The notes beneath the pieces are model-generated. The model saw only the letters and a list, made by a program, of their open reading frames with translations. It was not told the origin of the DNA and searched no databases. Of a stretch of DNA of 64,000 nt, positions 60,593 through 64,000 are shown piece after piece; positions within the stretch are counted from its first letter, which is position 1, and each line of letters starts with the position of its first letter. Origin of the DNA: an uncultured Granulosicoccus sp. GTDB lineage: Bacteria; Pseudomonadota; Gammaproteobacteria; Granulosicoccales; Granulosicoccaceae. The DNA is taken from assembly GCA_947495035.1 (NCBI GenBank), contig CANLXI010000001.1:124001-188000 (forward strand), in the 5' to 3' direction. The translations under genes and the position numbers were made by a program.

Positions 60593-63058
60593 ATGAAACA
60601 GTACTACATACCGACATCGTTTCTGTTACTGGTTGCGGCCGCCTGGGTGCCATCATTGCGCGCAGCGGGTCAATGCGGTGAGGACACCGCCATCTTCGAG
60701 ATCCAGGGGGCGACGCATGTCTCCGTCTTGCAGGGGCAAACGGTGGATACCTGCGGTGTGGTCACTGCCACCGCCTTCAACGGCTACTATCTGCAGGATG
60801 CAATCGGTGATGGGGATGACGCCACGTCTGATGGCATCTTTGTCCTGAACAGTGGCGAGCAGCCGCCGGTGGGAAGCGTGCTGGAACTGCGGGCCACGGT
60901 TGCGGAATTCATCGCGGGCGGCGTGTCGAGCGGAAATCTGTCCACGACCACACTGGTTGATGTCGAGGAAGTGAGCATTCAGGGCGAAGCCGAGTTGCCA
61001 GCGCCGGTGTTGCTGGGTCTGGATGGACGGCATCCTTCATCGACTGTCGTGATCAGTGACAGTGAAACGCTCACGGACATCAACCTGCAGCTGGCAAGCG
61101 ATGCCGCGGAGACGCCTTTCAATCCGGATGTCGATGCCATCGACTTCATGGAGTCGCTCGAGGGCATGCTGGTCAGCGTGTCGAATCCGGTGGCTGTCTC
61201 CGGCGTGCGTCAGTTTGGCCGCTTCAGTGCCGAGGTTGTTGTGTTAGCCGATCGTGGCGCCCTGGTGGAGCCGGTGGAAGCGCTGGGCGAGCGTGGCGTT
61301 CTGTTCCTGCAGCCAGATATCGACAACCGAGGCGATCAGAACCCGGAGCGCATTCAGATCCAGTTCGACGGCACCCTCTACGGCAGTACCGATTACCCGA
61401 ACATCAAGGTGGGCGACACGCTGGAAACCATCACCGGTGTCGTGGGGTACAGTTTCGGCAACTATGAAGTCAATGCACTTGGACCGGTAACGAGCGTTGA
61501 TGGAGGTCTGCAGGCCGAACGCAGTACACTGGTGGGCAGCCCGTCCGACCTGTTGCTGGCCAGCTACAATGTACTCAACCTCAGCGCCGTGGAGGCCGAT
61601 GCCGAGCAGCGACAGGCCATCGCCAGCCAGATTGTCGATTCACTGAACGGGCCGGATATCATTGCCTTGCAGGAAGTGCAGGACAACAATGGTGATATCG
61701 GCGATTGCAGCGGTGATGACACCTCCGACTGTGCCGGTGTGCTGGATGCCTCCGACACCTTGCAGGCGCTGGCCGATGCCATCGAGGAACAGGGCGGACC
61801 CGCCTACGCCTTTGTCAATGTCGATCCGCTGGTGGAAACCACGGATGACAACCGCGATGACATCGATACCTTCGGTGGCGCCTCGCTGGGCAATATCCGC
61901 AACGCCTTTCTATACAACCCGGAACGTGTCACCTTGCTGGACCATCAGGGCATTACCCGGGAACAGCTGGCCGAGCGAGGCTCGAGCGTGCCTGATGCCT
62001 TCGATACCTCGCGTGACCCGCTGGAGGCTGTCTTCGAGTTCAATGGTCGCCGTATCACGCTGCTCAACAATCACTTTTCCTCGCGCTTCGGGTCAAGCCC
62101 GATCTTTGGCGGACCGCAGCCCTTCGTGCAGGCCGGTGAAGAGGCGCGCGCGGCGCAGGCCCTGGCCATGCATGAACTGGTTGCCGCAGAGCTCGACGCC
62201 GATCCGGATGCCAGAGTCGTGGTTCTCGGCGATCTGAATACCTTTCAGTTCACGGATGAGCTCAGTGAGGTTCTGCCTGCTGCCAGTGATTCGCGGCTGT
62301 TGCACAACCTCATCGAGACGGTGCCCGGTGGTCAGGCGTATTCATTCAACTTCGAAGGCAATGCGCAGGCTCTGGATCATGTGTTCGTGACCGACTCCTT
62401 GTTGCAGGGCGCTCAGGCAGATTATGTCAACGTCAATGTCGATTTTGCACGGCTGTTCGATTCCGTGGTGGCCAGTGACCATGAGCCGGTGCTTGTCCGG
62501 GTCGACATGAGCGGTGCCGTGCAAGCCGAGACGCTGGCCTTGACCGGCGCGGTGTACTCCAGTACCGCCCTGGAGCTGTTCTGGAATTACGATGACCTGC
62601 AGACAAGCCCTGTTGGTGTCGACATCCTGCGAGACGGGGTTCGGATCGCGGGTAATGATGGCCGCAGTTTCTTTCAGGAGGGGCTGTCCCCGGACACGGT
62701 ATATCACTATGAGGTCTCGGCCTTCGATGCCCGGGGTGACATCGTGGCGAGCGGCAGCATCAGTCTGCAAACAGCCGTGGGCTATCCCGTTGCGCCGGCA
62801 GTGCAGGTGGCCAGCCTCACCGGCCTGGTGTATTCCTCTTCCGCACTGGAACTGTTCTGGCAGCCGCCGGCGGACAGCGATGAGTATTACCTGTACCAGG
62901 TGGTGCGCGATGGTCACTTGCTGGAGACCAATGACGGACGCAGCTTCTTCGATTCCGGATTGCAAGCGGATACCGACTACGCCTACGAAGTGCTCACCGT
63001 GGATCGGCAAGGCATGGCCGGACCGGCGGTGTCCCTGTCGCTGAAGACCAACCCCTGA
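60593..63058 (+). CDS. ExeM/NucH-type extracellular nuclease with C-terminal Fn3-like repeats
   Basis: An 821-residue secreted protein. After a signal peptide (cleavage near LRAAG) comes a ~270-residue OB/lamin-tail-like region (GYYLQDAIGDGDDATSDGIFV). An endonuclease/exonuclease/phosphatase domain follows (LLLASYNVLNL, IIALQEVQDN, LNNHFSSRFG, VVVLGDLNTFQ, LDHVFVTDSL, SDHEPVLVRVD). At the end are two ~85-residue Fn3-like repeats, each with YSS-ALELFW and NDGRSFF. It degrades extracellular DNA for phosphorus, nitrogen or carbon. The likely Pho box fits the phosphate role, alongside the alkaline phosphatases. Confidence 0.87.
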   Translation: MKQYYIPTSFLLLVAAAWVPSLRAAGQCGEDTAIFEIQGATHVSVLQGQTVDTCGVVTATAFNGYYLQDAIGDGDDATSDGIFVLNSGEQPPVGSVLELRATVAEFIAGGVSSGNLSTTTLVDVEEVSIQGEAELPAPVLLGLDGRHPSSTVVISDSETLTDINLQLASDAAETPFNPDVDAIDFMESLEGMLVSVSNPVAVSGVRQFGRFSAEVVVLADRGALVEPVEALGERGVLFLQPDIDNRGDQNPERIQIQFDGTLYGSTDYPNIKVGDTLETITGVVGYSFGNYEVNALGPVTSVDGGLQAERSTLVGSPSDLLLASYNVLNLSAVEADAEQRQAIASQIVDSLNGPDIIALQEVQDNNGDIGDCSGDDTSDCAGVLDASDTLQALADAIEEQGGPAYAFVNVDPLVETTDDNRDDIDTFGGASLGNIRNAFLYNPERVTLLDHQGITREQLAERGSSVPDAFDTSRDPLEAVFEFNGRRITLLNNHFSSRFGSSPIFGGPQPFVQAGEEARAAQALAMHELVAAELDADPDARVVVLGDLNTFQFTDELSEVLPAASDSRLLHNLIETVPGGQAYSFNFEGNAQALDHVFVTDSLLQGAQADYVNVNVDFARLFDSVVASDHEPVLVRVDMSGAVQAETLALTGAVYSSTALELFWNYDDLQTSPVGVDILRDGVRIAGNDGRSFFQEGLSPDTVYHYEVSAFDARGDIVASGSISLQTAVGYPVAPAVQVASLTGLVYSSSALELFWQPPADSDEYYLYQVVRDGHLLETNDGRSFFDSGLQADTDYAYEVLTVDRQGMAGPAVSLSLKTNP

Positions 63059-63103: not shown

Positions 63104-64000
63104 TCAGGCAACCGTGGAGAAGACGGTTCCCGGTCGTGCCTTGATATCCAGGGTCAGAAATTCCAGGCCTGCCTGGAAGGTATCGCCGCCATTACCGGGC
63201 TTGCAATACCGAACCTGACAGATGGCTGTCAGGAGACTGGTTTCCAAAAGCACCTTTGCATTGCCTGTCAGTGCCTGCGCGCAGCCAATGGCACAGCCCG
63301 CCAGGGACAGGTCCTGCAGATTGCCGGTTATGGCAATATCCTTCGGCCAGCGTGTCCAGAGCGTTACCGTATCCCTGACATCGTGACGGTAGATGCGCCG
63401 AAGTTCGTCGGACAGGGATTGTGGCAGTTCTTCCATTGGCAGCGATGGAGCCGCACAGCGCAGACAGTATTTGGTGGCTCCGTAGGGCTGACGTCCAAGC
63501 GTGGCATTGGCTCGGGTGGCGCCACAGAACTGGCAGTGAGGTCGGGCGGGCAGGCTGCTGAATGTCGTTGCAGCCCGGTCTTCGTCGGTGTGCTGTCGCT
63601 GTCCGTTCGTCTGCCGGTAATGCGCCTTGCCCGAGTCTCCGGTTGGGCGGTTCGGCGAGTCATGCGGAGAGCTCGCTCGTGATTCCCGGGAGGTTTCATC
63701 GGTGGATTCGCGTGATTCGCGTGATTCGTGTGATTCGTGTGATTCGTGTGATTCGTGCGAAGCCTTGTTCGCGGAACCGCGCGACGCATCTTCCGTCGTG
63801 TGCGAGCCGGGCCGCTCCGCTGCCTGTGGGCGCGGAGTGCCGCCTGCGTTCTCCGAGGACGGTCGAGTGCCGGCAGCCGCTGGTGCGGACTGAGCTGCGG
63901 CCCGTCTGGCCATATCGCGCAGCTGCTCATCGTAGCGGGCACGGCGTTCCGGATCGCACAGAGTGTCGGCCGCCAGATTCAGCAACTGGGCCAGTGACGG
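63104..64000 (-). CDS. J-domain / zinc-ribbon / PilZ-like fusion protein (partial, N-terminus outside)
   Basis: The frame runs in from the right window edge; 298 residues are visible. The first ~20 (LNLAADTLCDPERRARYDEQL) match the last helix of a DnaJ J-domain. A ~100-residue disordered stretch follows, rich in Ala, Ser, Glu, His and Arg, with consecutive His-Glu-Ser and Arg-Glu-Ser triplets. Next a CQFCG and CLRCA pair looks like a zinc ribbon. The C-terminal ~100 residues (WPKDIAITGNLQDLSLAGCAIG, QAGLEFLTLD) resemble a PilZ-type beta-barrel. The canonical RxxxR cyclic-di-GMP motif is not obvious. The combination suggests a chaperone-adaptor tied to envelope or motility signalling; no function is known to me. 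Confidence 0.65.
   Translation of the reverse strand, partial: PSLAQLLNLAADTLCDPERRARYDEQLRDMARRAAAQSAPAAAGTRPSSENAGGTPRPQAAERPGSHTTEDASRGSANKASHESHESHESHESRESRESTDETSRESRASSPHDSPNRPTGDSGKAHYRQTNGQRQHTDEDRAATTFSSLPARPHCQFCGATRANATLGRQPYGATKYCLRCAAPSLPMEELPQSLSDELRRIYRHDVRDTVTLWTRWPKDIAITGNLQDLSLAGCAIGCAQALTGNAKVLLETSLLTAICQVRYCKPGNGGDTFQAGLEFLTLDIKARPGTVFSTVA
63705..63758. repeat. Six tandem copies of a 9-bp unit inside a coding region
   Basis: GATTCGYGT is repeated six times with C/T variation at position 7 and a final-base change in the last copy. On the minus strand it encodes the HES/RES triplets in the disordered linker of the J-domain fusion. Copy number changes would keep the reading frame. 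Confidence 0.9.

Follow-up and report, generated by a model that had tools for sequence, protein, structure and literature searches.

The gene and its domains

The window, a stretch of 64,000 nucleotides comprising positions 124001-188000 of G000:C1 (a contig of 618 kb in a genome of 7.16 Mb), ends inside a minus-strand gene whose frame stays open up to the window edge. With the adjoining contig DNA added, the gene runs 126 bases beyond the window end, to G000:C1:188126 (window-equivalent 64126), and its full-length product has 340 residues and a GTG start; the C-terminal 298 residues and the stop lie within the window (Table 1). In L021 coordinates the full gene occupies L021:7105-8127 on the minus strand, inside a stop-to-stop frame of L021:7105-8133, with the GTG at L021:8127. 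The GTG start is supported by the homologues, because 13 of 15 have GTG at the corresponding codon and one has ATG there; in one of the 15 an ATG follows one codon later. The spacing between a Shine-Dalgarno-like stretch and the GTG is unusually short.

Table 1. Features of the gene in window coordinates, with strand and basis or detail
Feature	Position	Strand	Basis or detail
J-domain / zinc knuckle / PilZ gene, in-window part	63104..64000	-	residues 43-340 + stop
J-domain, C-terminal part (residues 43-66)	63929..64000	-	PF00226, AlphaFold of L022
J-domain residues 6-42, HPD at 36-38	window equivalents 64001-64111	-	beyond window
Low-complexity, predicted disordered linker (~residues 85-190)	63557..63874	-	L022 pLDDT, alignment
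9-bp tandem repeat GATTCGTGT, 5.9 copies, codes HES/RES run	63705..63757	.	TRF score 92
Four-Cys zinc knuckle/ribbon (putative), C198-x-F-C201 ... C221-x-x-C224	63455..63535	-	alignments
PilZ beta-barrel domain (~residues 236-335)	63122..63421	-	PF07238, AlphaFold, Foldseek, hhalign
RxxxR predicted c-di-GMP-binding motif, R243-R247, RRIYR	63386..63400	-	alignments
[DN]xSxxG predicted c-di-GMP-binding motif, D272-G277, DLSLAG	63296..63313	-	alignments

Residues 6-66 match the Pfam DnaJ model (PF00226) with an E-value of 9.1e-9, exceeding the curated cut-off. The HPD motif is encoded by bases 13-21 past the window end and is invariant in 15/15 Granulosicoccaceae proteins, our own included, which were aligned after a whole-protein search of 57 related genomes that found the protein in 15. 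The Arg/Lys/Gln residues of helix II are conserved in an alignment of 42 non-redundant rows. An AlphaFold model was made on L022, a homologue of 73% identity, with a 43-row alignment, and pLDDT exceeds 90 for most of its J-domain and PilZ barrel. The J-domain helices are present in this model, where most ten-residue blocks between residues 11 and 80 score 89-97 and the region around the HPD loop 72, and a Foldseek search of the PDB also returns J-domains, e.g. those of CbpA and Tid1. The N-terminal domain has the fold that defines J-domain proteins, with the HPD between helices II and III, and from what is known of this family it is strongly predicted to recruit DnaK. Pfam gave no match to DnaJ_C domains, CxxCxGxG repeats or HSP70 in the 340 residues, and matches to the NCBIfam DnaJ models are confined to the J-domain end and lie far under the cut-off.

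The linker that follows varies in length and sequence in the 15-row alignment, and its counterpart in L022 has a pLDDT of about 42-53. The HES/RES-rich run of this linker, to which the preliminary description had drawn attention, is real; it is encoded by the tandem repeat found by TRF, and since this repeat is missing from the nearest relatives in the alignment, the run is not a conserved part of the protein and was rejected as a functional element. Downstream, C198-x-F-C201 and C221-x-x-C224 are a zinc-knuckle-like pair that may form a zinc site. The four cysteines (198, 201, 221 and 224) and the phenylalanine of C-x-F-C are invariant in 15/15 rows and in the 42 non-redundant rows; the pair has no confident Pfam zinc-ribbon match, and the AlphaFold confidence for this part of L022 is moderate.

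The C-terminal domain matches the PilZ model PF07238 over residues 266-330 at 20.3 bits in hmmscan, just under the cut-off of 22.5; in a search of its own genome the score is 23.1 bits, over the same cut-off. In L022 this domain is a barrel of six strands with pLDDT mostly 95-97. PilZ proteins head the Foldseek list, with c-di-GMP-bound PilZ structures at a probability of 1.00: VCA0042 with c-di-GMP (2rde) superposes with an r.m.s.d. of 1.6 Å over 89 columns, and other matches are PP4397 with c-di-GMP (3kyf), BcsA and MotI, with Alg44 lower in the list. Comparison with stand-alone gammaproteobacterial PilZ proteins by hhalign (98.7%, E 2e-16) places the RxxxR and DxSxxG motifs in register. Both arginines of RxxxR (243-247) are invariant (15/15 and 42/42), as are D, S and G of DxSxxG (272-277) in the 15 rows; among the 42 non-redundant rows the latter motif reads [DN]xSxxG, with D/N in 42/42, S in 40/42 and G in 42/42. 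By conservation, the ligand positions, five in all, take ranks 4, 6, 7, 10 and 13 among the 104 columns of the PilZ part in these 42 rows, and alignment rows include members of only about 25% identity. The domain has the beta-barrel and both motifs by which c-di-GMP-binding PilZ domains are recognised. Motif-bearing PilZ domains constitute the c-di-GMP-binding class, and motif-less ones the pilus-assembly class. Family knowledge strongly predicts that this barrel binds c-di-GMP.

The preliminary description had placed a J-domain, a linker, a four-Cys motif and a PilZ-like barrel in one chain, and the full 340-residue gene bears this out: the HPD was found past base 64000, and the C-terminal fold is that of PilZ by Pfam, hhalign, AlphaFold and Foldseek alike. 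Its proposal that the PilZ-like end ties chaperone recruitment to c-di-GMP is strengthened by the conservation of the complete ligand motif. The proposed tie to pilus or envelope assembly gained no support, the domain being of the motif-bearing class and the neighbourhood offering no consistent partner. A motif-less type IV pilus assembly PilZ (a partner of PilB/FimX) was likewise rejected, as the ligand motif is present and no pilus operon was seen adjoining the gene in this genus.

Distribution, integrity and genome setting

A scan of a species-genome collection gave 49 loci, whose titles span Granulosicoccaceae, Nitrosomonas, Ectothiorhodospiraceae, Chromatiaceae, Thiotrichaceae and Woeseiaceae; the scan used peptide patterns that included HPD, and the invariance of HPD among these loci is partly by construction. 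The whole-protein search and a search with a C-terminal profile do not have this bias. When 369 gammaproteobacterial genomes were searched with a profile of the zinc knuckle and PilZ domain alone, 16 strong matches in 13 families were obtained, and a J-domain with HPD is present in 16/16, our own genome included. No strong zinc-knuckle-PilZ protein devoid of a J-domain was found among the 369 genomes, and eight weak matches fit the PilZ part of the profile only. With a J-domain and its HPD in every strong match, the three modules stay together as a unit.

A chance fusion or a frameshift artefact was rejected, the same three-module chain being found in 13 gammaproteobacterial families. Assembly contamination, estimated at 6.9%, is an unlikely source of the gene, because the contig is 618 kb long and the neighbouring genes are syntenic in other Granulosicoccus genomes. 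A phylum-wide draw of 398 genomes contained no member outside the class, and a search of PLSDB for spread by plasmids gave no match. Two members on MAG contigs, L044 (titled Acidobacteria) and L045 (Rhodospirillales), may be misbinned or may reflect horizontal transfer. In L051, L052, L059, L061 and L069 a family-like J-domain start is followed by the end of the frame after 109-147 residues, before the zinc knuckle; these are candidates for short J-proteins, disrupted genes or frameshifts of the assembly.

In 18 members (L031, L032, L034, L036, L038, L040, L041, L043, L046, L057, L058, L060, L062-L066 and L068) a second J-like domain lies between the first J-domain and the zinc knuckle. This second domain has lost the HPD loop and kept its N-RN-Y-R and YD ends, and the first J-domain keeps HPD in all 18. 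In a maximum-likelihood tree of the C-terminal part the two-J members, Nitrosomonas included, form one clade with a support of 100/98. The structure model of a two-J protein is less confident, with a mean pLDDT of 66, and the HPD-less copy possibly has a regulatory or dimerisation role.

Within the genus the gene stands alone, flanked on both sides by genes that are typically oppositely oriented, and these neighbours are syntenic. In the gene neighbourhoods compared, no partner gene is common across the family. Of the 49 loci, 11 (including four close relatives) have a GGDEF protein in the flanking DNA examined, which in GGDEF-rich genomes is not clearly more than expected. An HDOD-like protein gene directly adjoins the J-PilZ gene in L037, L054 and L060, which belong to three separate lineages. 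The convergent neighbour in the window (60593-63058, plus strand) encodes an 821-residue secreted protein that resembles extracellular endonuclease/exonuclease-phosphatases and has two similar C-terminal repeats; homologues are found at the corresponding site in four further Granulosicoccus genomes.

The genome itself encodes one canonical DnaK, next to which lies a DnaJ match, further Hsp70-family matches, among them a second full-length Hsp70, and seven J-domain matches. From its J-partner-like neighbour we infer that the second Hsp70 is HscA-like. There are 45 GGDEF matches and only four PilZ matches; therefore most c-di-GMP receptors must either belong to other types or have diverged beyond the reach of the PilZ model. 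All 21 of the 21 carrier genomes tested have GGDEF matches, between 13 and 51 each, an abundance that fits a c-di-GMP receptor, although genome size and kinship are confounders. Of 114 genomes drawn from the class, 98 have any GGDEF match and about 64 have 13 or more.

Relation to described chaperones and PilZ proteins

The closest known arrangements come from Myxococcus xanthus, where the PilZ-DnaK chaperones CsdK1 and CsdK2 enable accumulation of the PilZ protein CdbS, e.g. under heat stress (PMC10313047). As in the present protein, PilZ and a part of the Hsp70 system share one chain, which suggests a tie between c-di-GMP and proteostasis. However, the PilZ domain of CsdK1 and CsdK2 is N-terminal and fused to Hsp70 itself rather than to its J-domain partner, CsdK1 is without the first ligand half-motif, no zinc knuckle is reported for either, and the lineage is different (PMC10313047). 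The nucleotide- and substrate-binding domains of Hsp70 that characterise the CsdK proteins are absent from the 340-residue chain. A 2021 paper in J. Bacteriol. (PMC8316039) counts four M. xanthus PilZ proteins that have a DnaK or DnaJ domain; it lists them by domain content, which implies that at least one combines PilZ and a J-domain. Since such proteins have been described or counted, a coupling of c-di-GMP to chaperones has precedent.

Among J-proteins, canonical DnaJ and CbpA (classes A and B) share the N-terminal J-domain with HPD, and DnaJ also has a cysteine-rich zinc part, but the J-PilZ protein lacks their DnaJ_C client-binding domains and the CxxCxGxG repeats. With a PilZ barrel in place of the DnaJ_C parts, it is therefore a J-protein of the class C type. 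AtcJ of Shewanella oneidensis resembles it as a specialised J-protein that is devoted to a single process and has a C-terminus unlike that of DnaJ; in contrast, AtcJ is short, with a 21-residue C-terminal extension and without PilZ or zinc knuckle, and acts in cold adaptation (PMC6715715). Among PilZ proteins, VCA0042, YcgR, BcsA and Alg44 have the barrel with RxxxR and [DN]xSxxG and provide the closest solved folds, but the output of the J-PilZ protein is a J-domain and not a flagellar, cellulose or alginate function.

Phrase searches of 5.39 million non-subscription papers returned no description of a J-PilZ fusion, and in the literature so covered the family of J-domain, zinc knuckle and PilZ appears undescribed. 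The earlier remark that no described protein of this order was known to its author is thus nearly right: no paper found in these searches describes the three modules together, and the M. xanthus PilZ proteins with a DnaK or DnaJ domain are counted in PMC8316039 with no J-PilZ protein among them singled out for closer study. The J-PilZ family differs from the M. xanthus chaperones in that the predicted sensor sits on the J-protein, that a zinc knuckle is added and that the hosts are gammaproteobacterial.

Possible coupling of c-di-GMP to DnaK

Could c-di-GMP act on the Hsp70 machine through this protein? The conservation of the J-zinc knuckle-PilZ order in many gammaproteobacteria, together with the complete ligand motif, suggests that c-di-GMP can steer DnaK (Hsp70). 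We hypothesize, with a probability of about 60%, that this protein of a Granulosicoccus-like gammaproteobacterium is a J-domain co-chaperone responsive to c-di-GMP, which brings DnaK to a specific partner in a ligand-gated manner. The N-terminal J-domain would dock DnaK and trigger its ATPase via the HPD, while a flexible tether and the zinc knuckle would join it to the PilZ barrel, which would bind c-di-GMP via RxxxR and DxSxxG. A partner probably sits on the zinc knuckle and barrel; bound c-di-GMP may alter which partner this end holds or exposes, and only certain levels of c-di-GMP would then allow DnaK to be loaded onto a specific client or complex. The identity of the J-domain and of the ligand site is established from sequence and structure models, stimulation of DnaK and binding of the ligand are predicted from family knowledge, and the gating of chaperone action by c-di-GMP is less certain than these. 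Against this explanation, no conserved operon partner in the loci compared points to a client.

The main rival, which we consider rather unlikely, differs from ligand-gated recruitment only in the point at which the ligand acts: c-di-GMP-bound PilZ would set location or partner and nothing else, and the J-domain would recruit DnaK constitutively. No localisation signal was noticed in the protein, which counts against this rival; in its favour, the long, variable and disordered linker argues against tight allostery between the two ends. Moreover, the PilZ domain and motif of CsdK2 are dispensable for the client interaction tested (PMC10313047), and therefore PilZ and chaperone parts can act separately. 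We give still less weight to the view that the barrel has lost c-di-GMP sensing and serves as a structural or protein-binding module in a specialised constitutive J-protein. The PilZ Pfam score near threshold agrees with such a role, non-canonical PilZ domains can serve as scaffolds (review PMC10333796), and intact motifs do not guarantee binding, since M. xanthus PlpA has them and is reported as non-binding (cited in PMC8316039). However, ligand residues that are near-invariant across distant lineages are hard to explain without ligand binding. That the J-domain is a degenerate interaction domain without DnaK engagement seems very improbable: the second J-like domain of many relatives, which is without HPD, indicates that the fold is tolerated without DnaK contact, but the HPD of the first J-domain is intact in all members obtained with the C-terminal profile and in 18/18 two-J members, and the conserved Arg/Lys/Gln of helix II speak against degeneration as well.

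The outputs known for c-di-GMP lie mostly in motility, exopolysaccharide, transcription and the cell cycle, and a direct hand-over of c-di-GMP to the Hsp70 machine has so far only been hinted at, in Myxococcus. As a small, soluble, two-ended protein, the J-PilZ protein makes the targeting of a general chaperone by a second messenger directly testable, by ligand binding and DnaK ATPase. We regard the odds as even that this is a widespread, undescribed gammaproteobacterial family through which c-di-GMP directly controls where or when DnaK acts, with the HPD-less J-like domain of the second clade perhaps serving as a regulator within the same chain.

In four related two-J loci (L043, L057, L065 and L068), a pseudopilin-like gene and a gene for a GGDEF protein with an EAL-like end adjoin the J-PilZ gene; both lie on the opposite strand, about 0.6 to 3.6 kb upstream.
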